DNA of 64,000 bases from the NCBI GenBank assembly GCA_015501605.1, contig JADNRZ010000019.1:806001-870000 (forward strand), read 5' to 3'. Shown here in pieces: positions 9,961 through 62,144 of the stretch. Position 1 is the first letter of the stretch. Each line of letters starts with the position of its first letter. The position numbers and the translations under genes were made by a program. Source of the DNA: Panaeolus papilionaceus (taxonomy: Eukaryota; Basidiomycota; Agaricomycetes; Agaricales). The notes under the pieces were generated by a model. That model saw nothing but the letters and a program-made list of their open reading frames with translations, was not told the origin of the DNA and made no database searches.

Positions 9961-10712
9961 ATGGAGGGAAATAGTAGATGCGGTGGAGGAGGAGGAGGGA
10001 TATCAAACCGAAACTCGCGAGTTGACGCAGATGTACAACGCCGGATCTCTTAGAGTTAACTCGGCCTGCCTTGATGTGAATTTCTAGGTACCATGGGTTT
10101 GAAATGGGGGGTGGATGAGGTGGGGGTAATGTCAGGCAGGACGTAGAGGGGTGGGGGGACTCCGAAGAGGATGGGAGGGAGAGGCGAACGCTGAACGTTA
10201 CACCTTACGATTGTGGTGAGTCAGTGACCCACGCGTCGATGGCCCGAAACTCCGAAAAGGTCGTTCGTTGGCTTCTTGAAATCATACTTCGTGACATCGC
10301 GCCCCTGGGCCTACTCAGCTTTCTTTCTACTCCCTCAAAAGCATTTTTGACCTATCTACTAGGCCCTATGCGCGGTATTATGATGACACATGCGTCCTTT
10401 CCTTCCCTGTTACAGGCCGATTTTTTTCTATCGCCTTGCCACCATCTTTTCTTGTTGTAAACCCCCTTCTTTCATGCTCATCCATCAGGAAAATAATTAA
10501 AACTTGTTTTGTGGTTGCAGCACCGACCATTATGTAACAGGCCTTCCCTCGCTGATATGCCAGTGCATGGATATGCACTGGGGTGTCATTCTGTCATTAA
10601 GTATATATTCAATGTAGCATATTGGTAGTAGTCTTGTATGAAAATAAAATTATTATTTTTTGTTTACGATACGTGTGTCAGAATTATAGCACAGTTATAT
10701 TCCCTGACATTA
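9961..10712. other. Intergenic region left of the transposon
   Basis: This covers the end of the B1 relic plus AT-rich DNA. I find no supported gene. The last three bases (10710-10712, TTA) are the left target-site duplicate of the CACTA element. Confidence 0.5.
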
Positions 10713-10744
10713 CACTGCGGGCAAAAGGCTATCGTCTGGCCCTG
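10713..10744 (+). repeat. Left terminal inverted repeat of the CACTA element
   Basis: This 32-bp repeat starts CACTG and pairs with 32524-32555, with one mismatch at position 26. Subterminal words (ATCTTC, AAGAT, AATCTTC, GAAGATT) follow within 60 bp. Confidence 0.9.
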
Positions 10745-11347
10745 AAAGAAAAGTTATCTTCTAAAAGATATTCTGGGAATCTTCTCGGCTGGAAGATTCA
10801 TTAATTTTTCCTTTCATCCCAACTTGGGACATTTGCTAAGTGCCTTTTGTCTCGGTTATCATGGGTTAGCTAAGTTGAGGATACGGGAGCCCCCGGTGTC
10901 CGGGCATTTAAGACACATAACAAAGCCATCTCGGCCGCTCGTTTTCTGAATTTGTATAATTTCTCTAATCTTATATAAATATGATGTCGTCATCAACTAT
11001 CATTGAGTTGTGCCAGGGATTTGGTTCATAGGTGTAGGCGCCCATTAGCATTCACAGGCGCGTTAGATACAATACATATATATATTCATGTCCGTAATTA
11101 AGAAGAATATATATATGTCCAAGAGATCTAGATAGAGGTACAAGTGCAAACAAATGCGGAAGAAAGGATAGCATACTTAGTTGATTAAATTCTGTACAAT
11201 TAAAATATTTCCCCAGATTGCAAGAAGTGTATATATTTATGGGAAATGGGTGTACATGTGCATGCAAAAAAAGTTATTAATGGTGACGGCGCGAAGAGAA
11301 AGAATGTGATGATCGATGCTTGTCTGTAAGGCTATAGAGATATGAAG
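10745..11347. other. Left subterminal region of the transposon
   Basis: AT-rich, with clustered AATCTTC-type words in its first 60 bp. I see no gene. The nearest coding stop is at 11348 on the minus strand. Confidence 0.4.
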
Positions 11348-13416
11348 TTAGCTCGGGTCAAAGGATGAAGAGGTAACGTATACGTACTCGGACAAGGCAT
11401 TATAAAACGACCAAAGATCAAGCTTGACCGAAGCGTTAGGTTTGACATCAAATGCACCGCGATCGGGGAATTTGGATAACCAATCCTCGTCGTATACCTC
11501 TGTGGGGAGACCAGTTGGAAAGCTACCAGGTTCATCACGGATACCTTGGTCGGATGCAACTGGGGGGGCGCGAAAGTGAGCAGGGTGTCCACGCTGGCCA
11601 AATCCAGACTTTGCCTTGATTGAAAGATACAATGTGTCGAGGCCGTGAAGAACATGCGTCATCACAGAAGAACGCCAGAGCGGCTTGACAACATAACACG
11701 TTCCACAACTGGGATTGCTGTCTGATTCGTCACCGGACATGGCACTCCAGTCTAACGCCTTCATCGTGGGTTCAAATTGTTGGAGGTGCGGGTGATGTTT
11801 AACGGTGAAGTAACGTCTCGTGAACAGCTGCAAGGATGTCAGCTCTATGATGACGGGGAGAAATGTGATATGCATGTACGTACTCCTCTCTGTCGCTTCT
11901 GCCTCCGATCATGCTGGACGATAGACTGCTGTTGGTGTTGAGGAAGCAGCTTTCGTTTGTACTCCTTGTGCAAAGACGCGACGCGCACGAGAAACCGTTT
12001 CTGTATCGTTTCCAACTCCGTTATGTCCAATCTATAGTGTTTAACAAAGTCTCTGGCAAAGACACGCGCTGCTGATTGATTCCATGCGCACAAGTAAGAG
12101 CTGCCATAGAGAACCATACGAAAGTTATCGACGTCGCAACAAGAAATCGGATCGTCAGGGTTTCGGTTTGACCAGCGGAGGGCAAATGAATCGGCCTCAT
12201 CTATATCCACCATAACATCCCGACTAAATGCATTGCTCCTAACGAGGCGGTCAAGATGATCGCGGATATCCGACTACATTGATCAGAAAAAGAAGGTGGA
12301 CATTGTAAGTAACCTAAGAAGCTTACCTTGAGCTGATTTTCTTCCGCTTTATTGCGTTTCTGATAAGGAACATACGGCGCAGAGACAGGTGTTGCTTGAC
12401 GTCTGCTCCTGTTGGGCTGGTTATTCGTTAATGGCTGAGGGCGACCTGCGGAAACACCATTGCGTGTGACGGGTGTTGAGTGGTCGTAGTCACGAGAGCG
12501 GTAATCGGAGCGGGCCCTAGAGTATCGGAAGCAGGAACGAGAACGAGATTGAGGGAGATGACGACCGCGGGAGGGGGAACGGGAACGAGGGCGATGGCGA
12601 TGACGACCGCGGGAGGGAGAACGGGAACGAGGGCGATGGCGATGACGACCGCGGGAGGGAGAACGAGAACGAGGGCGATGACGACCGCGGAAGGGGGAAC
12701 GAGAACGAGAACGAGAACGAGAACGAGAACGAGAACGAGAACGAGAACGAGAACGAGAACGAGAACGAGAACGAGAACGAGAACGAGAATGAAAGCGAGG
12801 ACGAGAACGGGAACGGGAACGAGGATGAGAATGAGGATGAGAATGAGGATGAGAATGAGGATGGGAACAAGAACGGGAACGAGTACGAGTACGAGAATGA
12901 GACAGCGAGATTCTGTCAGGCGAATTAGGCCGGCCAGTGGAGGGTGGGGAGCGTGAAGATGAACGGTCATTTCTGTCAGGTCCATCGCCTCCTGCCAAGG
13001 ACCTGATGTCACATGCGGCTCCAAAACGTTGGTTGAATGAGTGCGTGATGTGTATGGCGGAAGGAGAATACGGCTGTTGAACTGAGCTTTGAGGATGTAA
13101 AGCTTCGGTTTGGGATGATACAATCGACGGCCTTCTAGACCTGTGGCGTGGTATATGTGTAGAAGCAGAATGCTCTATGCATATGGGTCTTGATTGTAAG
13201 ATATAGTTTCTGGAGAACAAAAAAATGATTCTCACCAGAGAGGGTCAAACCCGACTTATCTCCAGGAGTACGATAGTTCCAATGTTCAGGCATGGGGATG
13301 ATCAAGTCGGAAAGGTGGTTGCAATGTTCTTCGAAAGTTCGCGCAGTGTGTACGAGAGTCGGGAGGCTGGAAGCTTGCGGAGGGTGTAAAATGAAAGAGG
13401 TGCAAGTTCTAGCCAT
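11348..13416 (-). CDS. RS-repeat protein of unknown function (transposon cargo)
   Basis: My model has four exons: 13416-13236, 13174-12327, 12273-11884 and 11827-11348, 633 codons in frame. The N-terminal exon reads MARTCTSFILHPPQASSLPT. Exon 2 holds a long Arg/Ser domain: an SR dipeptide run encoded by a (GAACGA)n array, then repeats of SRSPSRGRHR. The last exons carry a conserved-looking globular part (LDRLVRSNAFSRDVMVD ... MKALDWSAMSGDESD). I associate the GMSSDESD-like phrase with an expanded family of Agaricomycete unknown proteins. RS domains usually mediate nuclear RNA/protein contacts. A nucleic-acid role for the transposon is inference. The start and first intron are uncertain. Confidence 0.6.
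12697..12789 (-). repeat. (GAACGA)n microsatellite encoding Ser-Arg repeats
   Basis: About 15 copies of the hexamer lie in tandem inside exon 2 of the RS gene. Related 'gaacgag' and 'gaatgagga' variants flank it. It encodes alternating Ser-Arg. The length is a multiple of three, so expansion would not shift the frame. Confidence 0.9.
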
Positions 13417-13723
13417 GATCATATTTATATATAATTCATCCGAGTAAAATAATGAATACGCACTGACATTGTCTGCATGAAAGGCGGGGTTGCAACACGC
13501 ATTACGATAAAGCAAATGTGATGATGTGAAATATGTGAGGGGGGCTGCAGGGCGAATGCTTCCGAATTAGATCATGTAACAAAAACGAGTACTTCAAATG
13601 ATCAAGGGCTCACAAGATATTATGAATTAGTGTTGTATTAAGTCCCCGTAAAATGTATATGAAAAAGGACACAAGCAGAACTCTTCGACGAAGTACCCAT
13701 GACCATTACCCTCTAGATGTGGG

Positions 13724-16700
13724 TTAAGACGAGAGGGACATGGAATGTTGACTGGCAATGCTTTTCATAAAGGCCTCATTTCTTTCCGTAACACCGTCTA
13801 CGAATTTGTAGATGTTGGCTATCCTTATCGTCCTTTTGGCCCTGATCCACGAGCGCCAATCGTTTCTCGACTTGGGTTGCAGTCCCTGCTCGATCTCCGT
13901 TATAACAAGAAGAAACAGCTCTTCGTCCACTTCCGTCCACTGGGTCCAATCATTCTTGTTTCTTGACTCGTACCAAGCTGTTAGGGGGGGTAACCACGAG
14001 ACAAGTTTCAGCTGATTTGCTTGAGCTACAGACGATTTGGAGTAAGACAAGGGAACTGCGGCTTGATGGTCAACCTACTCACCAGTTTCCATTCTGTAAG
14101 TCCCAATTAAAAGTTGTACCTCATAGTCTGAGAGGTCATCATCCATGTAGACAAGTCCCGGTCTTTCTGACGAGAATATCTGACCTTCGTGGTGCACGCG
14201 CACTTCTGACGACGGACCGTTGGCGATGGCATCAAACGTGAGGTATTGTCGAGCTATTCTCGCAATCAACCCCCCTTTGAGCAACGCCGCACGCCCGAAA
14301 GGGCGTGATAGCAACCGCTCAGCACTGAGCTTGTAGGCTTCATAGTCGTCCTGAGTGTAAACACGATTGTGAGGGTTAAGATATAAAAACCCTTCACTCC
14401 GAGGGAGAAAATGTAGGCGTGGTTTTGAAGACGTAGGTGGCACACGCAATAAGGTATGAAATGCGACACCCCGGTCCATCAACACTTTTGAGAGGGTTAA
14501 CGAAGTATGATTTCGGTTTTGACAGAGCAGACGCATGACAAGAAGTGCTGCTGTTGCTCCTTTGACTCCGAGGAGCCAGTCTACCGAGGACGAGTGGGTG
14601 TGAACGAAAACAAATAGGTTGCAGTCGACTCGAACAAAAAATTTGCTCAAATCATGTATCCCCGCAAGATAAAGGCGGTTAGATGGATTGAGGTCATCAA
14701 GATCGGGGTCGACAGGAATGGCCTTCATGAGCTGGCTGATAAAGCGAGTGATGGCAACTTTATCATTGCTAGAGACAAGGAAACCACTGGCATTCGGAAA
14801 ACCGACAAGTTTCATTGCAACTTCCCAAGACATGTCGCCATTAGTGTGGTGTGTAGCATCCAGAACTGGCGTGTAGCCATATGTGGAAGCCATATGCTGG
14901 ACGATGTCAATGTACGAGATGCCCTCAGTAGTGTCCGGGTCGGAGTTGCAAGATGTTTGGACAAAGCATGTCTGAACTTCCAGTGCATGGAAGTCTGTTG
15001 TCACCACCATATCGCCAGGAGGGGCCGGTTGAGAGGAGTCCATATGTCTGTAGGGAGATGATGCGATGACGTTTTCAGGGCCCACTGTAGACCTTTCTGG
15101 TGAATGTGGGGTACCGTACACCTCATTCCATAGATCTTCTGGGCTTTGGTCATCCTCTGATCCGCTGACATCACTGTCGTCGGTTTCCAATGCTGGGCGA
15201 GTATCATTTACATCGTCAAAATGTTCGTAGAGATCCCATTCGGGAGTTTCGGGATAGGCATTGAAGCGGCGAGTAAATGCAGGCTTTTTAAAAAACGAGT
15301 GCAGTACATCCTCTTGATTTCGTCGATTGATGCGAATCCGAGCATACAAGCTTTTTCCACCAGTGACAACCTTTTTCCATCGATAAACCACTGCTCGCTT
15401 CTTGGATGGATTTCTCTCTCTTGCTAAGCGTCGAGACCGTTCCTGCACAGTCTCACAGCGATCGAGCTCTACTTGTCGCTTTTTTTGAGAAGAAAAAAAG
15501 TGGGTCCAATGTTCATAGAGTTGTTCACCCTGGAAATCACCTCTGTCCAACATCTGTGGCCATGGGTAGCATGATCGAGAACGTTTCAGCCGAGCTTGCA
15601 CCTCACAGCGCGCAACTGCTGCCTGTAACATGGCAATGGTGGATTCTCTCCCTTCGGCTGTTACCATGGACGGTAATCTTGCCAAATCGTCGTCCCCGAT
15701 TGCATTGCAAAAGTATTGGAAGGTTGAGGTGTTCAGGTCATGCACTCTGAGCATCTTTTGGATTTGACTTCCTATTGCATTTAGCTCGGAGTTGAGATAA
15801 TGGACCATGATGACGCCTTTTACTTCTGGAGTTGAATCACGAAACAGCTCGTTGAGAGCTTCATTGATCATGGATTGAGGGGGGATCAAGTTGCGGAAGT
15901 GACGATGATTTTGTAACCACTGCTCCTCCTTCGCATCAAAGAGGAACCAGACGGGGATGTTGTGCTTGAGGAACCAATCTATTGAGGCATACTCGGCATC
16001 ACTTTTAGACATTCTGAGGATGATTCCGTTACGGGGGACAGTGCGGTCGAAATCACAGACAACAGAATTGTTGAGGCCTTCTAGCCATGAATGATCGGCT
16101 CCATCCTTTCGCAGACATGTGTACCACGGTGCGACTGAATCCTTCGCCTTGCGTTCACGGTTGTGATGAGGGTGTTGCGACATGCAAATCAGGTATGAGA
16201 GGAGTCCCATCCAAACGACAAACCAGTCGCGGGACGTTCGCGCCCGGGAGCTGACCGCACTGAGACTTTTGAGGGTATGTGAGTAGCCAAGATCTGAGGG
16301 TGGTGGTGGGGTTTCTCCTGGTATCTTGTAGGCCAGGCGAATAGCGTGACAGGCCTGTAGGATGTTATCCTCAGCAGCTTTCCATGCAACAGCATCATCA
16401 GAAGTTATCTTGAAACGTTTTTCGTACAGTCCTGCTCTAGTTTGGACGTCCGTTTCTTCGATTTTTGGTTTCCAGCATAGAGATCGGAATGGATGGGAAA
16501 GGAAGGAGGGGCTGAGCGGCATGAATCCAATCCAGCCCCACGAGGAACTCCACCATACGGGCTGGTCAAAATCCTGTGCCTTCAGGTTTCTCTCTTGGTG
16601 GTTGTAAAATGGTGAGGTGAGAGATGGTGGCTCTGCAGGTAGAATAACGTCGCGGCGGATCGAGTTTGGTGAGACAAAAATCCTTCCATTCGAGATGACA

Positions 16701-16837
16701 ACTGAACCGTTTTGAGCCCAGTTAATTGACAATAATTCGTGGTGGCTCATTGAAATAGTAGGGTTTCGGAAACAAGCAAGGTTGGTTTTATTAAAAGATG
16801 CAGAAATCTGTACTGGATCGCCAAATACAAGATTCAA
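13724..16837 (-). CDS. 1018-aa protein of unknown function (transposon cargo)
   Basis: There are two exons, 16837-14083 and 14025-13724, joined across a 57-nt GT..AG intron to give 1019 codons. The true start may be the internal Met of MSHHELLSINWAQNGSV (about 16750), because the first 29 residues overlap a short repeat (16809-16835). I recognise no catalytic motif. Visible segments are an N-terminal beta-rich part, Trp-rich WWSSSWGWIGFMPLSPSFL, a central NIPVWFLFDAKEEQW phrase, a basic linker near RRLARERNPSKKRAVVYRWK, an acidic stretch, and a C-terminal globular part. I associate the NIPVWF-type phrase with a large family of Agaricomycete 'hypothetical proteins'. The function is unknown. 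Confidence 0.7.
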
Positions 16838-17600
16838 GGCAAGGTTTAATAATTAAGACGCGGTTCGACTGTGCTTCCCTTCAAAGAAATCTGTATTGGA
16901 TAGCCAAATACACGACTTCAAAATGTAGGGTGGGAGAGGAATGAGAAAAGACGGTGTCTGTACTGGCTGGCCAAATACACGACAGGACTTGGTTGGATGA
17001 ACTGAAGCAGTTATAATTATGTCGTGTCAAGAAGGAATCACATGTCATGTGATCGTCTTTGAGATGGCTTACATAACGTCGACCGGCCACATCCGGTTAC
17101 CTCGGTTGAGAAGGAAATTCAACTGGCAGAATCCTGCCTCCTCATCGTCACACATACATCAGGCTTTGCTCTGACATTGCGTTAGGCTAACCAGCGCATG
17201 TCATTAGCGAGGTACTGCATGGCTTACAACTATAATGTATCTATCTACTTGTCCCGGTGTTGCGTTTGGCCATCCAGCGCACATCTTGGTCAAACCTGGA
17301 TAGTTCATGTATATATGCACTTTTGCTTTGGCGTTGCGTTAGGCTATCCAGCGCACATCATTAGCAAGATTGTTAACTCCTTGCTGCAATATTCGGGATT
17401 CAATGGTACAAATACTGTGTTTGGCCATCCGGCACACATCTCAATACGTGTCGATGCTGCGTTAGGCCACCCAGCGTACGCATCTGCATAGTGCCAGAGA
17501 AGACAACAATATCAGCTGTAGCACATCCCATCATTTATGATCTGAGGCGACATGCTTTCCCTTCAAATGCTGGGTTTGGCCAACCAACTCACATTTCGGA
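16809..17600. repeat. Nine interspersed ~25-bp repeats in two inverted groups
   Basis: Three copies at 16809-16835, 16891-16916 and 16958-16983 read CTGTAxTGGxTxGCCAAATA. Six copies at about 17178-17203, 17258-17284, 17335-17360, 17415-17440, 17457-17482 and 17569-17592 read TGCGTTTGGCCATCCAGCG with variations. The first group is the reverse complement of the second (shared core TTTGGCCAxCCAG). Spacing is irregular (about 40-115 bp). They fill the gap between the 1018-aa gene and the WD40 gene, where no other gene is visible. Confidence 0.75.
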
Positions 17601-17868
17601 GGCCTGATGAACCTCTGGTTACCAAGAGACCCAGGGAAGCCTCCGTGGCCACACCATTCAACCAATAAGATCCGCCTCTTCTTCCTTCAAAATTATGGTC
17701 ACATTTCACTGTACATATAATTGTCAAGTCGTACGTAGAGTGTTTCACAAAAAGTTTGATACACGCATTCATCTACATATATCTTTCTTTTCTAAGCTTT
17801 CTAAACCCGTTTATTATTTTGTAGAAGAAAAGGGAGTTGCATAGAAGGGACATGAAGACAACGTGGAA

Positions 17869-20782
17869 TCACGACTGTTCGTATTGTGGCTGGCCCATGC
17901 TGACAGTCACTGGAACTCGTAAAAGCCGTCCAGCGCTGTCGGAAATAGTGTGGTATGTCGTCTTCGGCGATGGCATTGCAAGAGCGGGGATACTGTTCAG
18001 AGCTGTCGAGGCGCCTTGTACACGTTGTTCTTCGCACTGCCCTTTTTGATCGGGGGTGTTCACTGGGCTCAGGATTGGAGTGGAATGGAGAATGGTGTTG
18101 GGGTTGAACGACACTGGACTGGGGAAAGAGATGGGATCAAGCAAAAGTCCGATGGGCGCACCCCAGGGTGGAGCACTCTCAGCATCATCATCGTCTGAAA
18201 GCTTGAATCGAACGCCGATCTGGCCTTGTTCGTCACTGCTCTCTGCCACGGGCGAGCTTTGATCATTTTCTGTGCTCGTTGCACCCTCTTCGCGTTTATT
18301 CCCAGATAGAAGGATGGAAGGGCTGTCGGCGCAGCCCCCCTCTGCCACACTGTCCTCAGGTAAACCCGGACGCCGCTTTAGAACGGATTTGACCAGGCTA
18401 CTTGGCCTGTCGTATGAATCTGGAGTAAAATACCTTGTGCGTGAGTTTGTTTCGTTAGCACTCTGAGAGCCGAGATTAACAATGTAATCCAGATCATCTC
18501 CCTCGGATGCCTCTGATCGCGAAGTCTTCTTTTGTCCAGGTACCAGCCGGCCTGATGCAATGTTTGCCTGGAGAAATAAACCCATAAAGGCGTTAAACGG
18601 AGCCCGGCTCTCTCGCAGGAAATAGCTTGCACTTTTTTTCAGAGTCGTGGAGACCTTGGATTGGTACTTGGTCGCTTGGTCTGAAAGTGTTGCCATATCG
18701 TCTTGGCCCCGTTTTTCAACATTTGCATTCACAGAGGATCCGGGTATCTCAACCAACGGGGAGATGAGTACAGTTGGTGGTGGGGGATAGATGTGGGATG
18801 AAGCGGGGCAGGAAAGGGGATTGTCCGTAACACGATCCTGCTTTGAATCGGGAGGGGTTGGCTTAGTCACAGAGGTGGCGAGACACTCGTCAGTGCGTTT
18901 TGGTGTTTCAATCCCTGACTCAACTGTGAGAGAGTGCGTGCGACTGGAGGAAGGGTGTGAAGGAATGTTGGCATTTTTTGGTCCCGTTGCTTGAGGGGGG
19001 AGGCTTGGGAGTGGCCGTGGTTTGAGGCCTGTCATAGAGACTGAGGGAGCAATGAAATCTGTTGTCGCTCCAAACAGGACAGCGTTATCTAAAATACGAA
19101 TATCGCCCAGAACACCCAGAAGGATTGTAGGTCCCCGCAAGGCTGTTTGTTGGTTGTCCACCGCCAAGTGGAGAACATCGCCTGCTTTGTTTCTTCCAAC
19201 AGCCTGTAGGGGGGAAGGTAAGTGTCAATTCTGTTATGAAGCGGTACGATCACTAACGATGTGATGGTATTCTGGGCAGCTATATATCAGTGGACACATG
19301 ACACAACATCGGCATCAGGGACGTACCTGCAGAGATATTTCCAGGCTGGATTTCCCTCGAAGACCAAGGGATAAAATCATCTATGGGTTTCCAAAGCATT
19401 AGGACACCTTCAAGACTACCAGAGATCAAAGTCTCGTCGTCTACAAACGCCATCCGCATAGTTCTGAAGCATGGTCTACGGCGTGGCGATAAAAATTCAC
19501 GACTTGATGCTACCAAGCTCCCATTCTGAACGCAGAACCAATCGACCCTCTGCCTGCCAAAGCGATACATTGCGACGTATTTTAGATTAGGGGAGAATTT
19601 TGCCCCAGCATAACTGAAAATTCATCAGCATGCCGCCACAAAACCCCGACACCATACTCACAGGGTCTGGTCGCGTCTCCAATTGTTGTCACTTGGGATC
19701 TTCTTCGTCGTCTGTCCCCCCGAGATTGAATGCACACTACATGTTCTTCAGCGGAAGTTTTGTACGTTTCACCAAAATTCATACCTGATCCCCAAACAAC
19801 CTAAATGAGCCACATAAATGAAGTCGTCTTTAATTGCGACATCGCATGGGATGGCATCATTGAGGATATTAGTAACGTCGCCAAGCGGGGGTGCAGCCAA
19901 CCAGTGAACGTCTACTTTACCGCCAACGGCGGGGACTAGTTGCACAGATATCAGTTGTCAAGAAACCCCGTGTCAATGCTCCCACTTACAAGCTATCGGA
20001 TTAACAATGTAGCCGACTTTGTGTGCACAAGCCACCGCCAGACGCCTGCCATCCTTCTCGAACCCTAAGCAATGGATATAATCGTCGATCAATATTCCCG
20101 TATGCAACTCGTCCGACTGAAAATTGTCGTCTCAGATTGCAGTGAAGCTAAAACGATAATTTTTTGGACAATACCTTCCAAATTTCTGCGAGCACAATCT
20201 TGTGTAACACCCCGTTCGGCGCCCCAATAAAAAGCACGTTATCATGTTGAGGGTCCCAAGCTAAGGCTTGCACGGGACCATCCTTTGCGATTTCAATTCG
20301 ACGTAAAGGCGAGCACATTTGATTGTCGAGGCTCCATATCTGCGTCCCAACAAAAAGTCATGATCATCAACTGCGTCACAGAAATCGAAGCTTTATCCAG
20401 GACCCACCTCCGCGTCCCCCTTCTCGTAGCCAAACGCTACAAATTTTGCCGCAACAGACATCTCCATCGCCACTATATCTCCCCTTCCTCCCAGTGCTTC
20501 TTTGCTGGCAATGTTCGTAGAAGGAAATTGCATAGAAACCGTGGATAAATCATGATCACTGGCAAGGCTGTTGTTGGGTAGAGAAGTCATAACAAGTCGT
20601 ATGAGATCTAGAGTTTGTTGAATATTCAAGGTCGTCTGGGAGGGATATGCAGATAGATGGTTGTGGACAATGCGCTGGAGCAAGGAAGTGGTATGCACTT
20701 TGATCGCTCGATAATATCTTAGAATCTGACAGTAAAATCCACAGATCCAGCTCGCCGATGAAACCATGAAGCGACCTTCCAT
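17869..20782 (-). CDS. WD40-repeat protein, 842 aa (transposon cargo)
   Basis: There are eight exons: 20782-20408, 20339-20175, 20116-19990, 19935-19785, 19736-19662, 19613-19327, a 14-nt micro-exon 19271-19258, and 19203-17869. They sum to exactly 843 codons. WD-type phrases appear through the first half: GPVQALAWDPQHDNVLFIGA, CLGFEKDGRRLAVACAHKVG, AGAKFSPNLKYVAMYRFG and MAFVDDETLISGSLEGVLML. These indicate a beta-propeller. The C-terminal 400 residues are Ser/Pro/Asp-rich and probably disordered. No enzyme domain is seen. WD40 proteins are usually scaffolds. The match of exon phases argues this is a functional gene, not a fragment. Whether it was captured from the host is unknown. Confidence 0.75.
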
Positions 20783-21313
20783 TGTCATTGACTTTGTCAA
20801 AGGAAATGGCCATGGGCCATGGGCTCCTAAATTAAAATTTACCGCGCCGCCAACTCTCATAAATCACATTATCACAGCTTGGTATACGTATTCCCCGCGA
20901 GGCATGAAAATAGCATCATCAGGGCTGACATATGTCATGATCATTTCCACAGATAAATTTGTCTTTCATGACTTGATCAGCATACGTCCTTCCCTCTTCC
21001 GCATTCGGCAAGAACACATGTACAGGGCCAACACAAATGCAGGTGTCCAAGTTCAACCTTCAAAGACAATACCTTTGCTCGGAGACAATACCTTAGCTCG
21101 GATACCACTTGCCTAACCTATCAGAAGGCAGCGCAATATGGTTAAGTAGACTGAAACAGTGGCCATGGTTGCTCTAGATCTGTTTAACAATCCGCAACTC
21201 TCCCCTCCAATATCTCAATCACTTCCCCGATGGTACGCCTTAAGACTTTTCTCGTTTTCTCGAACTCATTCTTACTTATAATTGCAATTGCTAGCCCACC
21301 GTCCGTGTCCCTA
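20783..21313. other. Gap between divergent cargo genes
   Basis: This is probably the shared promoter region of the WD40 gene (-) and the small gene starting at 21314 (+). Short frames here are not supported. Confidence 0.35.
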
Positions 21314-21988
21314 ATGCCCGCGGCAGACGTCAACCCAAGCGACAAGTTATCGTATGTCTTCTTCCACTTCATGATCCCATCTGTCATTCTTCGAGTCCCT
21401 CCTTATAATTAACGTCTGTGTAGGGCGGCGTGAAAGGCTACTTGTACCCCTCAAGAGGAGCATCACTCAACCGCCGGATGGAAACGTTTTCCGTTTCGCA
21501 CACCGGTAACTTGAACGACGTGCCTGTCGTCAACGTCAAAAATCATTTTTATAATCCCTGTCGTGTATCCCTCATTTCGTCCACGATTAGCATAGGATCC
21601 GGACGACGCCGTCAATATCTCATTACAGCGTTTTTTGACTCCACATTGGATATCAATCCAACTCTCTACGCTTTGGAACCGATGGTGCAGTGGAGAGGAG
21701 CTCTTGCAGTGGTCTCAACAGGATCCCGCTCAGTCGTTCTATCCCGTCCTGCTGGGTCCCAGCTTGAGATCAAAGAGGTCGTCCGTCTGTCAGTCTTTGT
21801 TATTGTTGCTCATCACATTTGACTCCTGCTCATGATCTCATTTTTTTCTTTAAAATATAGCTTCATGAGACGGATTAAAGATGCTATGGATAAGGAATTA
21901 CCGCTCCCTGAGGCCATTACCGTTAGTACCTATTTTTTCTATCGTTTGCTCGGTCATCATCGCTGACTTTGAGCTCCAGTACGTCTAG
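21314..21988 (+). CDS. Small conserved-looking protein of unknown function (transposon cargo)
   Basis: Starting at MPAADVNPSDKLS, the likely exons are 21314 to about 21357, 21424 to about 21792, an exon from about 21861 (FMRRIKDAMDKELPLPEAI) to about 21918, and a last exon of a few codons ending TAG at 21986-21988. The middle exon is well formed: GGVKGYLYPSRGASLNRR, VPVVNVKNHFYNPCRVSLIS, LEPMVQWRGALAVVS. I recall similar short proteins as unknowns in mushrooms but cannot name a function. The first intron border is uncertain because the best donor (gtatgt) gives the wrong phase and the next (gtcttc) gives the right one. Confidence 0.5.
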
Positions 21989-22587
21989 AACAAGTCAATA
22001 ATCACTTCAGACCTGCTCGTCTCATATATAGGTCCATCATCATCATGATCAATATTATAATCGTTTTTCTTTTACAAATTTTCGGTACATTTGATGAGAG
22101 CTTGTTCTTTTCGATACCTTTGGACTTTGTCAAATTTTTGAAGCCTTTACTGTTCATGATCATGCCAACATTGCGCGACACCTTGCAATTGATGAAACAC
22201 GATTGATGGTCATGAGTCTCATGATCATCATCAATGTCATTTTCCAATGCGACTCTAGATATCCGTGTTTCTTAGTGAGCATAGCTACAGAAACTCTCCC
22301 GATCGGTCCTTTCATGAATCCATACCACAAATGTGAGTTCCGGACCTGAGCTTCCACGTCTGTCAATTTCATGAAAGAACTCGTATATTGACGTTATGAT
22401 TTTTCACAGGAGCACATTCTGCCAAGATACGCCCTTTGATCAGCACGTGTAATATTGTCTTTGAACAAAAGACTCCCTGTTTTCCATGTCATCATGATCT
22501 TCGGCTTTCGAGATTCTCAATCTCGAAGTCAGATGTACATATAACTCACAACTCTCTTTTCATATATACAGATCTGCTCCCTTTCGT

Positions 22588-25500
22588 ATGCGTACTCGCA
22601 GCCAACTGCCTTCCCGCTTTCAAGAGTACACACCCCAACCCATATCAAACCAAACCAACAGCAACGATTACTGCGTTCACCGCTCATCGACCTACGACAT
22701 CGACTCATATCCACAGTCAAAGAAATTTCCGAATATCAAGGTGAGGCAGGATTGCAATGCTTGTTATAATCGCTCCTCCCTCCTAACGTTCTTTGTTCTC
22801 TGTTATTCGACCAGACTCACTCGCACGACTTTTTGTCGGATTATATGGGACACGGAAGCAGCTACAGGGATCGTGAATCCCAATACAAAGATGGTAGTCG
22901 GGAAAGGCGCTCAACTCGGTCAGCATAATTTTGATTTTATGGCAAGCACACCGATCTGACATGAAGAACTGATGCCAGTAGCTCCTATTACCGAAGCCGC
23001 GACTCAAGACGAAGTTCTTCTCGGTATGTAGAATCGCTCATGCTGTCAATGCGCTCCTCACCATTCAAGGTATAGCTATTATGATAGAGAACGTGGACGT
23101 TCTCGATCTTCACGCGACTATGAGAGTTCTCGCCACTCTGCCCGCACACGATCTTGTGAACGCAAAGAAAGAGAACGTGGCCACTCTCGCAGTTCTCGCC
23201 GCTCTGCCCGTACACGGTCCTACGAACGCAATGATAGAGGCCGTGGCCGCTCCGCCCGTCCACCGTCTTATGAACGCAAAGACAAGAGGCCATACCAATC
23301 ACGAGATCGACGTGAAGGATCCCAGCGAACCAGTCGTGGACGATCTGGGTCATCTACAGAACCTGATTATGATAAGGGTTCTTATCATCGTCCTGGACCC
23401 GAAGCGTCCACCGAGAGCCACACCCGTGCTCCCCCTCCTCCCACCCCCCACTCCACTCCTCCTCCTTCCCCCACCCCTCCTCCCTCCATCCCTGTAACCC
23501 CGACGGAACAAAGACCACAGACCACATCTGACACCGTTTCTAATCCGCGTGTCCCATCTTCTGAGCCCCCCCGCACTCAACATGAACAAACCCCACCCGC
23601 CAACCATCGCGAGTCGTCTCGAGGACGCTCTCGTGACCATACCCCGCACAAGCCTTCGTCATCCACTAACCATCGCGAGTCGTCTCGGGGGCGCTCTCGT
23701 GATCGTACCCCTCACAAACCCTCGTCATCCACTAACCGTCGCTCTCGTGATCGTGCCCCGCATAAGTCCTCGTCATATCGCGAGTCGTCCCGAAGGCGCT
23801 CTCGTGATCGTACCCCGCACAAGCGCTCGTCATATCGCGAGTCATCTCGGGGGCGCTCTCGTGATCGTACCCCTCACAAACCCTCGTCATCCACTAATCA
23901 TCGCTCTCGTGATCGTGCCCCGCATAAGTCCTCGTCATATCACGAGTCGTCTCGAGGACGCTCTCGTGACCATACCCCGCACAAGCCTTCGTCATCCACT
24001 AACCATCGCGAGTCGTCTTGGGGGCGCTCTCGTGATCGTACCCCGCACAAGCACTCGTCATATCGCGAGTCGTCTCGGAGGCGCTCTAGATCTCGCGATC
24101 GTACCCCTCACAAACCCTCGTCATCCACTAACCATCGCTCTCGTGATCGTGCCCCGCATAAGTCCTCGTCATATCGCGAGTCGTCCCGAAGGCGCTCTCG
24201 TGACCATACCCCGCACAAGCACTCGTCATATCGCGAGTTGTCTTGGGGGCGCTCTCGCGATCGTACCCCTCACAAACCCTCATCATCCACTAACCATCAC
24301 TCTCGTGATCGTACCCCGCACAAGTCCTCGTCATATCGCGAGTCGTCTCGAAGGCTCTCTCGTGATCGTACCCCTCACAAGCCTTCGTCATCCACCAAAC
24401 GTCACTATACGCCTCGCTACTCGTCTCGAGGACGCTCTCATGGTCGTACCCATTCCAGGAATCGTGATCGTACCCCATCACACAGGCCCAGGTCGTCCAG
24501 CAAGCGTCGTCATCACCGACACACTTCATATTCTGGGGAGCGTAACGAATATAGGGAACCGCACTCCTCCGCATCTAGTCGCACCCATAGGGAGGACCAC
24601 TATGATCACAGAATGTCTAGTGAACGACATCCTCCCTCTCAACCGGACCGTAATGATCGCCACGAAGACCAGCATTCCTCACATCACACTGAACGAGGAC
24701 ACACACAGCAGGACTCTCGACACCGAACACCTGGTAGTTCTGACGTTGACAAGGAAATTCCCCAGGTCATAGGGTATGTATATTCCTTTCGTTATGTTTG
24801 TCTCCGTTAAAATTTATACTATATTTATCATCTAGACAAGACGCTGCTGCGGATGTCCTCAAAACATCGAAACGCTTCGTCAAGGAATTCTTCCAGGATC
24901 GAAACAAGCTCGAAGAGGCAGAGCTTCATACAATCAGTTGTACACTGGCCATCACTCGTAACATCGAATCAGCTGCCCGCGCTGCTCCAAGAGCTGCTGA
25001 ACGCATAGGCAGGGATGTTTTCGATGTTGCATGCGCTGCTGTCATCATCAGCTTGGAGGAAAAGTATGACCTTGATGGCAATCAGCACGATGACAGACAA
25101 CGGACAACCGCTCCACAGTAAGCCCCTCTGTATAACATCTTCTTCAGGTCACGTACTTATGCAAGACTTGATTTAGACGCATGTCCGGCACTCATGAAGG
25201 ACCCTCCCGTGGCTACGCATCAGCGCCTATTCCTTCGTCCACAAGATCGACTGCCAACCGCTCCGATTTTGTTTCCAAACACGCTGCTTTTAAGGACATG
25301 AGGTGTGCTGTTTATTTTTTTAACATGTACAGGAGCATCGCTGATGCTTAGGTCTGCAGAGATGAGGAAAATAGGATGCAATCCCGAAACTGGTATGCAT
25401 CAGCTCCACCGAAAGTATGGTATTCACGGGAATCAGATCGCATGTACGTCTATTTTCCCTGGGTCGAAGGCCCCAACTGATCATAACCTTATAAATTACA

Positions 25501-26233
25501 GGGATGTCGATTTTTCTTCTGAGTGAGTGACTCCCCTGTCCTTCTCGTTCCATTGGACTCATGTTTCATTCATGCCAGACGTAAATTTAAAGAGCGCGAC
25601 AATCCGGACGAGATGCCAGTAGACGACATCGATGCGACCAATACTCCCCTCCCGGAGAAGCCCGTTTCTGTCCCCCTTCCTCTCTACGTCCCGAATACTT
25701 CGCAGCATCGAAAATGGACAAAGAATGATGGAGTTCATCTTGTCTCCTATCTTGGAAGTGGCACCGTTGCGAAACCTTATGTGGAAAATAGGGATTTTAG
25801 GGGGGGGAGCTTCAGGTATTATCTGTCTTTTGGTTCGGCATTGATTGCCACCCCTCCCATCCCTGCTTCCACGTACGATTTTGCAGGAGCAAAACTGCGC
25901 GTCGGTGATGTCTATATTCACATCCTCAACGATATGACAGAAATTTCTGTTTGGCACCTTCTTCCTGGACAACAAGCCCTCGCGTCGTCGTCGAAAGATC
26001 GCAGCCTCAGGGTTTGGGAGAATATTTCACGTTCCTTCGTCCTCAACGACATGTCGGTTCGACACCCCAACGATCCAAGTTTTGTATTGGCAATACACAT
26101 CAATCTCAAGCCTCAATATCTGAAGACTTCAACTATGCAGACTTACATAGGAGCTGACAAAGGCGTCCAGAGGAACGTGACGCCCAACGATGATCTTGTG
26201 AAGCTTATTGAGTCGCTAACAGCAGGTATTTAA
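22588..26233 (+). CDS. RS-domain protein with C-terminal globular region (transposon cargo)
   Basis: A multi-exon gene: 22588-22740, 22815-22918, 22979-23023, 23070-24773, 24836-25117, then about 25178-25301, 25353-25450, 25501-25524, and a final exon from about 25580 to the TAA at 26231-26233. Exon 4 carries a 560-residue Arg/Ser domain built from a repeating SRDRTPHKPSSSTNHRE unit with a Pro-rich patch before it. The C-terminal part begins QDAAADVLKTSKRFVKEFF, looks helical, and is followed by a beta-rich section (VHLVSYLGSGTVAKPYVENR). It has the same design, RS array plus unique C-terminus, as the minus-strand RS gene in this element, but a different C-terminus. It is probably nuclear. 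A role in transposition or RNA handling is inference only. Confidence 0.65.
23600..24420 (+). repeat. Coding minisatellite in the RS gene
   Basis: Two alternating in-frame units, encoding roughly RGRSRDRTPHKPSSSTNHRE and RRRSRDRTPHKSSSYRESS, recur about a dozen times with few changes. The repeat keeps a second long frame open (23549-24772), which is a shadow and not a gene. Confidence 0.85.
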
Positions 26234-26677
26234 TTACGAAAACATACAGGGCGTCTAATAGATAGATCCATACACGTAGTGGCCTGTCAAAGACAAATCC
26301 CGAACACCGATCAAGAGCGCCGATTTCCCTCTATTTGATTTTCCTTCTCGTTCCAGGCTGTCATTTGCCATTCCAGATATATGCATCTTGTTTTCCCTCG
26401 ATCACATAAAAGATAAAAACATTGTAATGCGAGCTCCTTATAATTAGATATATAATGTTTCTGTTTTCTACTTTCAATTTCGTCACTTGTAATTATCATG
26501 ACTTTTATTTCATGATCAATCACCACTTCTTCTTATTTAATGTGGCTGGGAGGGGTGATAAGGGGGAACAGATAACGATGCCGATGTGATCAGGATATCG
26601 GGTGCTTTTAGCTAGCCATGGTACGTTCAATTGGTTGTTTTCGACAAGAGCTGTGCACACGTCTAACAATAACCATC
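26234..26677. other. Gap before the transposase
   Basis: AT-rich, no gene seen. It probably holds the terminator of the RS gene and the promoter of tnp2. Confidence 0.4.
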
Positions 26678-29600
26678 ATGCCCCCTGTTCAAAATCAAAG
26701 ATCCAAAAAACGTACGTTGGTAGAGTGCAATTGCCAACTGTATTGTTATCGTTGGAATGCAGAAGCTCAGGAATATCGAGGGGAGCGCGTCACCCTGGCG
26801 ACTCGTAAAAATCACAGAAAAGACGAAGCCGAACAGCGACGAGAGCAGAATCGTGGCCAGTCCCACTCATCCTCAGAGTGGCTGCCAACAATTTCGGATG
26901 AGCTCCAAGCTCTTGCCAGCACACCTGTTGTTCACCCCGACACCCCTCTTGTTTTTGTCACCGACCCAATCTCTGTGCCATTCGACTGTGATATCCAAGA
27001 CGAACTACTTCGGCCAAATCATGCCCCGTTTTCCCTTGCTACACACCCCTCCAATACTCATTTTCTGGATGTCCAATCTCGCCTGGTCAACATCTATCAT
27101 CTCCTTGAAACATCCAACCAAGAGGAAGGCCGCGTCAGTTTGATGGAAGATGTTGAAGGGATCATGGCAAAATTAGTATTGGAGAAACATATTCAATGGA
27201 ACAACCAGCGTTATGGCGGCGCTCAAAATCACCACGTCAATACCGGTAAGTAGCTCATACTTTCAACCCCAATGGAGCATGCTGATGTTTCCTCGTTCAG
27301 AGATCTTTTTTTATCGTGGTCATCAGCGCAGCAAGGCTTATCGTTGCGCGGTCCTTGTATCACTAGTCCTAAAGCATATCTATTCAACTCCCCTCCGCGC
27401 AACACGAACACAACTCGCTGGGCTCCGCAGTGTACTACGTTTGGCCGACTTTCCTTCAAACGATATAAACCAGCTACCCCGTGACCCACGAACAATTACA
27501 ACTTACTATCAACTTCAACCAATTACTCGGCAATATATCTGCTGCCCCCAGTGCAATTGTATCTATGCTTGGAATGGGAAGCGCAGGGGAGAGTCGGGTT
27601 GTATTGTTCCAAGCCAATGTACCCATCAGCCCGCCACTGAGGACCCTGTTTGTGGAGTAGACCTTTGGAAAGTCCGGCGACTGCCAGGGAATCGCACCTT
27701 CTATGTGCCAATCAAGCTCTACACGCAGCAACCATTGAAATTTTGGCTTGGACGCTTACTCTCCAGGCCCGGGATCGAAGACCATATTGACAACGCAAGG
27801 ATGACTACCCGAAGCGGCGATAACGACGGGTCTCTAAACGACATCTGGGGATCCCCTTGCTTGAGGTCCTTGAAGGGTCACGATCAGCAGCCCTTTCTTC
27901 CCGGCCCAGAAACCGAAGGTCGTCTTATCTTCGGGCTCGCTGTGGATAGCTTCGATCCCACCTCGCTGAAAGCAGCATCCCAATCCCTATCATCAACTGG
28001 CATTTGGCTTACCCTTCTCAACCTCCCTGCTCACCTGAGGTATTTACATGAAAACATGTACCTCGCTGGAGTGATCCCAGGACCCCAGAAGCCATCTTTG
28101 GACGAAATAAACCACTACCTTGATCTGGTGATAGACGACCTTTTGGAGGCATTTCACCCAGGGATTCATCTATCCCGGACGTACAAACACAAATTCGGGC
28201 GTCTATACAAGGCAATGCTCGTCCCCTTGATATGTGACATGCTAGCGGCTCGACAAGTCATTGGCCAGTCCTCAGCCCCCACCGCCCATAGTTTTTGCAC
28301 CGCGTGCGATTTGGATAAGGACGACATCGACATTATGGACACTCGACAATGGCCCCAGAAGGATATCGTGCATGTACGCCACTATGCGGGCCTTTGGAAG
28401 TCTGCAACAACTACAGTGGAACGCCAGAAGCTCTTTGATGGTTCAGGTATTCGTTGGTCTTCCCTTCTACGTCTCCCCTATTGGGACCCCGCCAAGTTCA
28501 CGGTTATTGATGCAATGCACACCCTGGACCTCGGCCTATTCAGTAATCAATGTCGATCGCTCTTTGCGCTGGACGCCGACGCAAGCAGTGGGGACGGGAC
28601 TTGTGCTCATCCCAAGGCCACAATAAGCAAGAGAATTTATACCAAGGCACACGTAGCGGGATACCGTAAATGTATAAACATTGTCGTTCACAACGGGCCA
28701 TCCATTGAACGTGAACTCCTCGAGCTGGACAGGAAAGTCCTTTACAGCTTCTGTGTCGACAATTCTATCACAAGTGATGGTCGTGACCTGGTGGTTGGCA
28801 CAAAATGGGTTCTCACCTGCAGCATCATTCGCTGGGTACGTTGGTCCTTTTTATTAAATGACGCAAACTAATACTGGATCATCAGAGGAACGCCGAGACC
28901 TACTCCCATCCGAGGCTTGACATTGAGGAAATCCGCAAAGACCAAGTAGCGAGACTATCGGAAGAACCTGAGCGTGAAGCGACACCTGAAGGTATTACCG
29001 ACTTGAAGAATCTTCTACCTACCATCAAACTCTTGTTACTTCCAACTGCTGAAAACATGGAGAAACTGCCCTCTGTGGCTACCAAAAAAATATACCTCCA
29101 AATCTGCGATCTGTTAAACATCAATCACGAGCACATCGATCTGCGAAAACGTGCAGCAAAGCGTGAGCTTCAGGACTACATATTGGAACAGGTGGGCACC
29201 GTGGTGTTTTAAACCTGTTTTTTTTACCTGACCTCGTCCTATAGTTGTCAAATGATGATTCATATACCACCACTCTGTCACAGCTACTACCGAAGCCTAA
29301 TGAACGTGTTGTTTTGGGAAAGGAGGTGATGGCGGTTGTGTGGTCCGACATGAAGAAGACTCAAACACCAACATGGGTAGCAACGGCACCGCCTAACTGG
29401 GGGACCACACAGCGAGGAAAGCTCAGCGCGGCTCAATGGAGGGTGATTTGCACCATACATCTTCCGATTACGCTTATTCGACTATGGTCTGGCGAAGAGG
29501 GCAGGAAGAGGTTGCTCCTGGATCACTTCATGGACCTCGTGTGTGCTGTTCGAATTGCCAACATGAAGACCAGCTCCAGTGAGCAAATTGCGGCGTACGA

Positions 29601-30637
29601 CAAACACATTTTTCGCTACGTCGCGAATATATGCAAAATTTATCCGGACCAGAATCTGAAGCCCACTCACCATTGTGCACTACACATAGGAGAGTTTCTC
29701 CGATCTATGGGACCTACTCATTCTCACAACTCCCCTTTCTTTGAACGTTACATTAATTTCTTTCATCATCAAAACACAAACTCGCACCCAGGTATGTCTC
29801 ATATTATTGCGCTCATGCCTACTCAGCCTGACTTCAGGTGTACAACACAGCTGAAATGGACACCACTCTGCTCATCTCGTCTGCGTGTAACGGGAATCTT
29901 CGCGGATTGCTCGCAGACGACTCTGAAATTCGTCCACTCGTCTGTGAAATGATCGACACCATGCACACTATTGATCAAGAGGACATCAGAGGTTTTCGTT
30001 TAGCTAGCATCCTTGATCCAAACACCCCCACTGCAACTTCTCGTTTGAAAGGGAACCTGCTCGTGCTAACCCCGACTCGCCAAACACTTTGGCGACGGTG
30101 TCTGGAAAACCGCGGAGAATTGCCAATCGATATAAGCCCCACAGTTATATCCTTCACTCAAATAGCCTTGCAGGGGGTTTGCTACAGTACAACTGACCAT
30201 GTCTTTCGCAACAGCGTCATCATGTTCTCGGAATTCGCCAATCAACCTCCGTCTGCTGCTGATTATCAACACCTCAAGGCAGCATTCATTGATCTTATTT
30301 TTCAGCCTCACGCCTCGCAGTCCTCACAAACATACTATCTCTTAGTCCGCGAACTTATTCCAGTCGAAGAAAAAGACGGCCTCTGTGATCCGTATAAACG
30401 TTACGGCTTTGCCAGCGGTTTCCTATGTCGACAACATCACCAAACGCTCCGTGTTATAAAGCTAGACCAAGTCAATTCACACGCAACTATGACACCTATG
30501 CAGTTTGACGGGTTTGGTGATGTCTATCATATCCTCTGTGTCGATCGTGTGCGTTTCTCGTTTTCGCGCACTTCTCGTTGCTCACATATTTGCAGATGAT
30601 GAATATTTTTTCGACGTTTGATTATGACACACCATAA
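26678..30637 (+). CDS. tnp2: TNP2-type transposase of the CACTA element, 1231 aa
   Basis: Six exons (26678-27245, 27301-28835, 28886-29191, 29245-29791, 29851-30548, 30596-30637) sum to exactly 1232 codons with no stop. The N-terminus is basic and Cys-containing (KKRTLVECNCQLYCYRWNA). A zinc-ribbon-like CPQC pair follows. Then comes the family signature: RLIFGLAVDSFDP, IWLTLLNLPAHLRYLHENM, YLAGVIPGPQKPSLDEINHY, the RxxxARQVxG segment (MLAARQVIG) and a HSFCTACD Cys pair. The region VIDAMHTLDLGLF resembles the conserved DxMH of the TNP2 catalytic core. The C-terminal half has QWRVICTIHLPITLIRLWS and LHIGEFLRSMGPTHSHN, as in fungal TNP2 proteins. It would bind the element's ends and cut them. 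Integrity suggests recent activity. Confidence 0.9.
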
Positions 30638-31037
30638 TTTACATACATGTACAAGTGGAATGATTCGGGAATCCGTATATTCATCGACAGATATGCCGTA
30701 ACACCGTAAGCCGGATTTCATAAGTATACTTAGCTGTAGCACATTCCACTTCTGGTTGAGATGATCATGACGTGGTACGTGATGCAGTGACGGTGTCATC
30801 GTGGAAAGGTGATCAATTATAAACGCCCAAGAAAATTACAAGATGTAGATCAACTAAAATGTAAGTGGCCATGGTCTCCTGTGTACCTACTATGATCCTG
30901 GTTTAATCGCCCACAGATAGGAACAAATGCACAACGACGATTGTGGAAATTGTAGGGACGTGGTATAGGGACAGCAACAAACACGAATACAGAAGGGTGG
31001 AAATATCGGGGATATGGTAAAGGGATCGGAGAAACAA

Positions 31038-31753
31038 TTACGGGACGACGATTGCGTTAACGTTGGAAATACCCGCGTCTTTCAGGAGGAGTTGGAGGTC
31101 GGTAGGATGCAGACGTCGGGGGGTTGGCGCGTTCGACCTTCGCTGAGAGTTGTGGGACGTTGCCCTATGAGGATGAGCGTACAAACTTACACGAAGGGAG
31201 ATTCGTGTGGGGATGAGGTTGTAGCGTTTTTTCTTGTCGACGAAAAAGCCTTTGCTGAGGTTGGCGTAGCTGTTCGCGATTCCTGACCCGCGCAGAAATG
31301 GTTTGGGCAGTGCATGGGAGCAGGGTAGAAGTTGGAGGAAAGGGTGGACGTTGTTGACGACCACCATTGGGTGCCTCACCTTGTGCGCGGGTTTGTGTGG
31401 CTTCAGTTCGGCCTTCGCGATCCAGTTAGCGTGAAAAACATACGAAAAATAGCAAATTACGCACATTTTTCAATCTGTAGCAATCCTTAGGCCTAACCCA
31501 CACAACGTCGCCCACCGACCACACCCTCCCACACCGTTTTTTCGCCTTCGACGTGACCGATCCGACACTGGCACCACTCGTACTGAAGCTTCTCGCGATT
31601 GAAATTGCTGGGCCAAGGGAGCCCGTATACAAGGCGCGTCGTAAAGAAATACGTGTCGCGCTGCCTGTAAGCCAAATTTCGTTCACTTTGTTCAAGTTTT
31701 GCTACTATAGACCACTTACCTGCCACTTTTGAGCCCACAAGTGTATGGAACAT
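31038..31753 (-). CDS. Predicted mitochondrial protein, 202 aa (transposon cargo)
   Basis: Three exons, 31753-31720, 31664-31465 and 31412-31038, make 203 codons. The N-terminus, MFHTLVGSKVAGSATRISLR then ARSFSTSGASVGSV, is Arg/Ser/Ala-rich without acids. It contains RSFSTS, a hallmark of fungal mitochondrial presequences. Next is RVWSVGDVVWVRPKDCYRLK, which could form an SH3-like barrel strand, and KPHKPAHKVRHPMVVVNN. The C-terminus is basic. I do not recognise the family. A start nine codons upstream (31780) is possible. It reads towards the transposase and away from the right end, so it looks like a captured gene. Confidence 0.55.
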
Positions 31754-31799
31754 AAGTGGAATAGGGTGGATGGGGTACATGGATGTCAGGGTGGGATGA

Positions 31800-32523
31800 A
31801 GATGTAGTGGATGATGAAGAAGTTGTGTAAAAGCTTAAATGACGGTGCGTGTCCACAAAACATCTGTGTGGTCACCGACGAGTGATATAACATGGGCTAT
31901 CTGTGGAACGCGACACCGCGCTAATCTCGCCCGCCTATCATCCTCTTCCTTCAACTGGAGGACGTTCTTCGTGTACGAGCCTCCAGCGATGCAGTCCCAG
32001 TCTCCCAATCTCCAGCAACATTAATATGGACTGCCTCAACTTGTATGTTTTATGCTTCCTTTTAACATAACACTAACATATCTTTTTTAGCACTCGATTC
32101 TCTCAATTTCTGGCGATTGAAAATATTATTACGCTCTCAAAGGTCGTGGTACGAGTCGGCATTCATATCTCACTTCTTACTTAGATATTACTCTAGATAT
32201 CGTACACCCCTCCAGACCAGCTACTTATACCTTACTTTATTATATTTAATTCTAGTCTACATCAGTCTACATCTCTTTGTCTATATCTTATTGATCCTTT
32301 TATCATATTTATTATCTTCAGTTAATACCGGCCGCAACGCCGCCGCAATGGGCCGTAATTGACCAGAATTAATCATTTATTTTCATTATTGGCACTAAAA
32401 ACAACCATTAAAATAATATTTAAAATAATAATAAACATTTATTAATACTTATAAAAGGACAACGAGGCCAGAAGATAATAAATCTTCCAGCCAGGAAGAT
32501 CCTTTAGAAGATTATTAATATTC
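31800..32523. other. Right subterminal region of the transposon
   Basis: AT-rich with a pyrimidine-rich stretch at about 32160-32300. AATCTTC/GAAGAT words cluster in the last 60 bp, mirroring the left end. No gene seen. Confidence 0.45.
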
Positions 32524-32555
32524 CAGGGCTAGACGATAGCCTTTTGCCCGCAGTG
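32524..32555 (-). repeat. Right terminal inverted repeat of the CACTA element
   Basis: This is the reverse complement of the left repeat (31/32). It ends CAGTG and is followed by TTA. The words GAAGAT, AATCTTC and AAGAT lie just inside it at 32470-32515. Confidence 0.9.
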
Positions 32556-32558
32556 TTA

Positions 32559-36690: not shown

Positions 36691-37191
36691 GTTTTACCTA
36701 TGCCCGATGCCAAGTGTTTTCAAGGGCTTCATTTTCGATACTCATGGAGAATAATTTGGGTGCTCGATGCGTGTCCGTGATACAGAACTTCCGCTGCCCA
36801 ACTCTACCCACTTCCGCACTGCTCTCTGTTTGTACCCCTCGATTTAAATGTATGCATTCAGAAAACCAGGCTCCTAAAGACAAATGGCGTAACTTGAAAT
36901 TGAATGCATTCGTATCAAGCAGGCACCGCACTCCAAAGACGGGACATTCACAACAGACTGCGGAAAGGTTTTGGTTGGCCGTTGAGGACTATGTGTCAAC
37001 ATAAAAAGCCCAAGACAAGAGTCATCAAACATATAGGTTTACATACACCTTCCCATTACCTTCGCTTCGCTAGTTTAACGACAAACAAATATCTCAACAT
37101 TCGAATTGAACTCACCCTCAATCCCTCGTGTCGACATCACTCATCGGCGAACGGATAACGAAGTCAGATAGAAAGCCATTCAGAACTTCTG

Positions 37192-62140: not shown

Positions 62141-62144
62141 AAGA

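Follow-up and report, generated by a model that had tools for sequence, protein, structure and literature searches.

CACTA transposons are usually described with one or two open reading frames (ORFs), and the giant fungal elements known as Starships are moved by a tyrosine-recombinase (DUF3435) captain at one end. Here we describe a single giant CACTA (EnSpm) DNA transposon of 21,843 bp with intact ends, which occupies positions 10713-32555 of a 64-kb stretch of DNA (C11:806001-870000, hereafter the window) from the mushroom Panaeolus papilionaceus (Agaricales); one assembly of 50.85 Mb in 71 contigs served as the sample. In the plant elements treated in PMC2613891, sizes of 8.3 kb (En/Spm), 17 kb (Tam1) and 20.5 kb (soybean Tgmt*) are given, the transposase and a DNA-binding protein come from one complex transcription unit, and the subterminal repeats are binding sites of TNPA. 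Enlarged En/Spm elements of the red alga Chondrus crispus are put at 16-20 kb with 4-5 ORFs (PMC6431247). In fungi, EnSpm elements of the CMCT group have been reported with CAC..GTG ends and 3-bp duplications (PMC12730594), in agreement with an earlier, sequence-only reading of the window, which had taken CACTA elements to be known in fungi. The SmTRC1/fungal TRC families of PMC1636069 likewise carry Transposase_21, with Coprinopsis and Phanerochaete already listed. Since a repeat library of Marasmius oreades holds elements of up to ~42 kb, as far as PMC9674265 details it, similar giant elements may already sit in such libraries.

The mushroom element has termini of the CACT(A/G)...(C/T)AGTG form, a target-site duplication in the 2-3 bp range, a tnp2/Transposase_21 domain and short repeated subterminal motifs, and by these four features it is a CACTA/EnSpm element. 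With the plant elements as presented in PMC2613891 it has in common CACTA ends, a 3-bp duplication (stated there for Tgmt*), a tnp2 transposase, short subterminal repeats (in plants bound by an element-encoded protein) and non-autonomous derivatives. Unlike them, it has at least five additional genes, spread over both strands, and lacks a recognisable TNPA. The Chondrus elements are likewise multi-gene CACTAs of similar size, the likeness being one of size and ORF number, but their host is a red alga and not a fungus. Size alone is therefore not new, given the plant (17-20.5 kb) and Chondrus (16-20 kb) examples, and fungal EnSpm elements are also known. In the account given by PMC1636069, the ends of the fungal elements could not be determined; for the mushroom element, both ends, the duplication and an empty site are all defined. 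The apparent novelty lies in a mushroom CACTA whose limits are defined and whose genes, six or more and on both strands, have stayed together between diverged families.

Ends, target duplication and empty site

The left terminus at 10713 reads TTA-CACTGCGGG..., the element itself starting CACTGCGGGCAAAAGGCTATCGTCT, and the right terminus at 32555 reads ...CCCGCAGTG-TTA, the element closing with CAGTG. The inverted CACTG/CAGTG ends agree at 31 of 32 bp and are identical over the outermost 25 bp; in a gapped alignment the inverted similarity covers 98 bp at the left end and 85 bp at the right. The sequence-only reading had reported 32-bp terminal repeats with 31 matching positions and TTA on both sides, and re-reading of both termini bore this out. 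The following features delimit the element and its insertion site, the duplications by direct reading and the interrupted repeat by a genome match search with the flanks.

10710..10712, no strand: left target-site duplication, TTA
10713..10810, + strand: terminal inverted repeat at the left (CACTG) end; its subterminal GAAGAT/ATCTTC sites are at 10756, 10779 and 10792
32471..32555, - strand: terminal inverted repeat at the right (CAGTG) end; its GAAGAT/ATCTTC sites are at 32471, 32482, 32495 and 32507
32556..32558, no strand: right target-site duplication, TTA
10483..10712, + strand: interrupted dispersed repeat, left part
32556..33380 (end approximate), + strand: interrupted dispersed repeat, right part

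A scan of the window for inverted pairs (32-mers separated by more than 1 kb, seeded on 12 identical bases, at least 26 of 32 matching) returned seven rows, among which the ends of the element ranked top at 31/32. Five of the remaining rows were GGA-type pairs (26-29/32; for example 1156/63502), which were discarded as low-complexity sequence, and the last was 61451/62453 (28/32). Even with up to seven mismatches allowed, the 25-bp end is present in the window solely at the two termini. A 3-bp duplication was found in all six elements examined with both ends located, namely TTA here, TAT in a second giant element on C34, and CCA, TCT, CAA and TCA in four miniature inverted-repeat transposable elements (MITEs). 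Since these sequences differ among elements, the TTA match reflects no fixed target.

To define the insertion site, 1000 bp of each flank was searched against the whole genome. Counting the locus itself, the left flank gave 15 matches and the right flank 32, the right count including an adjoining repeat; the left part of the interrupted repeat matches 14 further places. One locus, C3:307021-307972, matches both flanks, the left at 94% (307021-307249) and the right at 92% (307247-307972), and the two matches are contiguous, overlapping by three bases that correspond to one TTA. Artificially joined flanks align uninterrupted through this locus. It is a paralogous empty site, and because the flanks are joined there with a single TTA, the 21,843 bp and the 3-bp duplication came as one unit. 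The sequence-only reading had suggested looking for an empty site with one TTA, and the C3 locus supplies the paralogous version; its proposal of an intact 21.8-kb CACTA transposon thus stands on ends, duplication, tnp2 and empty site together. A second uninterrupted copy of the repeat, at C34:2107423, has different bases at the target. Divergence among the repeat copies gives no date for the insertion. The adjoining stretch 33383-33555 belongs to another repeat, a copy of which at C7:419401-419573 is 100% identical.

Transposase

26612..30599, + strand: tnp2 (CACTA) transposase in several exons, with PF02992 in 27177-28871 and a DUF4218-like match in 29245-29952

The ORF at 27177-28871 matches Transposase_21/tnp2 (E 5.2e-11, 42.6 bits against a cut-off of 28.6), the sole Pfam match above cut-off among all 45 ORFs of at least 100 amino acids (aa) inside the element; the DUF4218-like match is below cut-off. 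The tnp2 exons are open frames. We found 13 tnp2 places in the genome, and nine sequences were aligned, across which D257, D354, C374-x2-C377 and M447-H448 are invariant. A C(2)C motif is also described for the CMCT group in the comparison of fungal EnSpm and Plavaka elements in PMC12730594.

Three other identities were considered. Plavaka, for which PMC12730594 gives TGT..ACA or CATCA..TGATG termini and a PF18759 transposase, was rejected, as the element has CACTG termini and its transposase ORF matched PF02992 only. An EnSpm element bearing a TET/JBP gene was rejected as well: six Tet_JBP matches were found genome-wide (one above cut-off), none of them inside the element or less than 20 kb from any of the 13 tnp2 places. 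These Tet_JBP-like matches lie on C56, C24, C61 and C10 and at C23:2142824 and C11:229196. Starships, as described, are likewise giant fungal elements with several genes; no tyrosine-recombinase Pfam match that could mark a captain was found in the 45 ORFs of at least 100 aa, a scan that took in, of the shorter exons, only 19772-19957.

A second giant element with the same gene order

The terminal 25 bp, allowing three mismatches, occur 13 times in the genome (0 for a reversed control): at the two ends in the window, at four pairs ~230 bp apart (C56, C3, C26 and C70) and at three single ends (C27, C29 and C16). The four pairs are the MITEs named above, which measure 229-232 bp; one C56 end starts CACCG. 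A second giant element has ends of its own. It lies at C34:2547041-2571251, measures 24,211 bp, has inverted ends agreeing at 29 of 30 bp and is flanked by TAT on both sides. Its ends depart from those of the window family after nine bases, and its end pattern occurs 12 times in the genome (0 in the control).

The MITEs with related ends raise the alternative that the two termini in the window belong to separate short elements flanking an ordinary host segment. This is almost certainly wrong: a paralogous copy of the target repeat has the flanks joined exactly and sharing one TTA, the 25-bp end is confined to the two termini in the window, and the second element, whose genes run in the same order, has matching ends of its own. 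A chance or separate-element origin of the ends, which would have undone the sequence-only reading, was accordingly ruled out by the paralogous empty site and the second element.

Comparison of the two giants at the protein level, with ORFs of at least 30 aa, revealed that both carry A, B, C1, a coding-like block, C2, tnp2 and D in the same order and orientation. The gene models below are at exon level, from sequence comparison.

11351..12273, - strand: gene A, conserved exons (also in C34), basic protein family of many Agaricomycetes, candidate TNPA-like
12204..13244, - strand: ORF with Arg-Ser repeats immediately upstream of gene A, of which it is probably the N-terminal part
13727..16852, - strand: gene B, a 925-aa open frame and a second exon, annotated BJ165DRAFT_1408076 (989 aa)
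17869..20863, - strand: gene C1, beta-propeller/WD40-like, exons 19283-20863 conserved with C34
21424..21819, + strand: coding-like block conserved with C34, 21669-21809 also open on the - strand
23032..26233, + strand: gene C2, conserved exons 24750-25121 and 25523-26233 (weak WD40)
31041..31469, - strand: gene D, exon conserved with C34

At least six genes and one further coding-like block are thus conserved between the giants, and the seven genes counted by the sequence-only reading were about right. The 14 protein blocks compared have 32-76% identity, and synonymous change is saturated in 13 of them, so the association of these genes is old. The ratio of nonsynonymous to synonymous change (pN/pS) is 0.21-0.64 across the 14 blocks; alignment by protein biases these values down, and the coding-like block falls below 1 on both strands (0.37 and 0.46). 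These values suggest that the genes have been kept under selection, yet they are no proof by themselves.

The tnp2 loci fall into two layouts. In the window element, C34 and C33, gene A lies at the far side and is transcribed away from tnp2; at two C18 loci and C23 it is found downstream of tnp2, with both genes transcribed the same way. To judge from this comparison, the two groups differ by a change in the side and orientation of gene A with respect to tnp2.

Own genes or captured genes

The sequence-only reading had compared the element with large cargo-carrying elements of fungi. A giant, multi-gene element it is; the cargo comparison found no support. For each gene, one exon or ORF was searched against the genome, match counts being lower bounds, and association was scored within 20 kb of a tnp2 match, a distance at which the 13 tnp2 places span ~1% of the genome. 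All six matches of gene A and all four each of C1 and C2 satisfied this, an association expected by chance at ~1e-10 for A and ~1e-6 each for C1 and C2. Because their matches lie only near tnp2 and their order is shared with C34, A, C1 and C2 look like the element's own genes in the P. papilionaceus genome, to which the rejection of a host-cargo origin for these three applies. The case for B and D is weaker, since both also occur away from scored tnp2 matches.

A Starship-like cargo element, in concept a transposase with captured host genes, would account for a length above 20 kb, for several non-transposase genes, two of them weakly WD40-like, and for the relatives of B and D away from scored tnp2 matches. 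We nevertheless regard it as improbable, in view of the confinement of A, C1 and C2 to the neighbourhood of tnp2, the gene order shared with C34 at such divergence, and the failure of any family other than tnp2 to pass the Pfam cut-off in the ORFs scanned. It is very likely, instead, that this is a single-unit giant CACTA whose genes A, B, C1, C2 and D form a long-standing set that mostly accompanies tnp2 and was not recently captured from the host.

Several observations weigh against this conclusion. Three of the seven matches of gene D are away from any scored tnp2 match (four are near one), and the 30 matched pieces of gene B group into 15 loci, nine of them away and six near; none of the 30 is at the C33 locus. 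Gene A was found at six of the 13 tnp2 places and C1 and C2 at four each, in the closer relatives, and they were not found at seven, nine and nine places, respectively, mostly distant ones. No ends were found in the stretches examined around the C18 and C23 relatives, and no end with the shared terminal pattern at C33. The third catalytic residue, the last acid of the DDE triad, was not identified in the tnp2 comparison. In addition, one full-length copy was found per giant family, and the next tnp2 relative is 64% identical.

The last point also bears on whether the element is a dead relic, once mobile and now immobile or reliant on the transposase of a relative, which would be compatible with a single-unit giant CACTA. 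The partial public model of gene A at this locus (158 aa) and the imperfection of the ends past the first 32 bp point the same way. Against it, the exons of tnp2 and B are open frames, the two ends agree in all of their outermost 25 bp, the duplicated target shows no mismatch, and pN/pS is low, subject to the caveats noted above. We consider a relic a serious possibility, though the less probable state of the element.

Subterminal sites and a proposed mechanism

In the terminal 2x200 bp of the window element, GAAGAT occurs seven times against 0.26 expected from the interior, and in C34 ten times against 0.45, a subterminal density 22-27 times that of the interior. In both families, base 50 from the terminus is the last base of an ATCTTCT. 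The pattern CACTGCGG-N5-35-ATCTTCT gave 29 rows, against 2 in a reversed-pattern control, some of these rows being the same end at two spacings and a few probably chance.

In the mechanism that we propose, the tnp2 transposase would cut at the CACTG ends and paste with a 3-bp stagger. A basic protein encoded by the element, for which gene A is the best candidate, may bind the phased ATCTTC/GAAGAT subterminal sites and could pair both ends across ~22 kb, as TNPA does in maize En/Spm. The same proteins might move the ~230-bp MITEs in trans, and the WD40-like pair C1/C2, B and D may each have some part.

Gene A is proposed as the TNPA-like protein because it is found only with tnp2 here and is basic: residues 220-400 of the C34 protein (P0008) have an isoelectric point of 10.1 and a net charge of +13.5. 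Gene A has no Pfam match above cut-off, and its core, although confidently predicted, has no PDB fold match at E<=0.001, for which reason DNA binding at the ends is kept as a proposal. By analogy, then, gene A may encode an end-binding protein comparable to TNPA, a suggestion that we rate somewhat short of an even bet.

A profile of gene A matched 35 proteins, four of them from P. papilionaceus; Galerina, Dendrothele, Plicaturopsis, Lyophyllum, Pluteus, Mycena and Artomyces are among the named sources of further relatives. Their given names are, for example, 'hypothetical protein' and, in one case, 'SUN domain-containing protein'. The locus described here suggests a transposon origin for the family.

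These results provide a giant fungal CACTA for which the limits are known to the base, a natural empty site exists and most of the unexplained genes appear to be the transposon's own, and a small, testable protein set for asking what joins transposon ends more than 20 kb apart. Tentatively, and with rather less than even confidence, we suggest that mushroom-forming fungi harbour an old lineage of 20-kb-plus CACTAs with a stable set consisting of tnp2, a new end-binding A, a WD40-like pair, B and D, possibly as dedicated machinery. If so, this set may serve the pairing of distant ends or the countering of host silencing.

Other features of the element and the window

The large ORF of gene B (14075-16852) is identical to a public protein of P. 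papilionaceus, and a P. cyanescens homologue of 321 aa matches it at 57% identity over 32% of the query. C1 has a weak beta-propeller match to PF23409 (E 0.0024 in the window and 0.00052 in C34, both below cut-off). Its long ORF at 17869-19224, which has no C34 match, is probably the 3' part of the gene. For C2, there is a single weak WD40 match (E 0.054), absent from the C34 counterpart, and the Arg-Ser/Arg-Asp (RS/RD)-repeat region at 23032-24810 is provisionally joined to this gene. Such Arg-Ser/Arg-Asp expansions are strong at 12489-12902 and 23602-24395 and much weaker in C34. Upstream of gene B lie three related 31-nucleotide (nt) repeats (16802-16982) and six copies of a 22-nt motif (TGCGTTAGGCTATCCAGCGCAC-like; 17178-17592); the repeats of 16802-17592 could be a regulatory or binding array.

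Elsewhere in the window, the separate inverted pair at 61451-62453, ~1 kb apart, is possibly another short element. Lys/Glu-rich, coiled-coil-looking ORFs recur at 9255-9680, 37159-37869, 40943-41683 and 49930-50961, and 36122-36216 and 48949-49043 each contain a 45-nt tandem repeat, the two consensus sequences being nearly identical. The recurring charged ORFs and the tandem repeat give the impression of local copying of a charged-protein gene.

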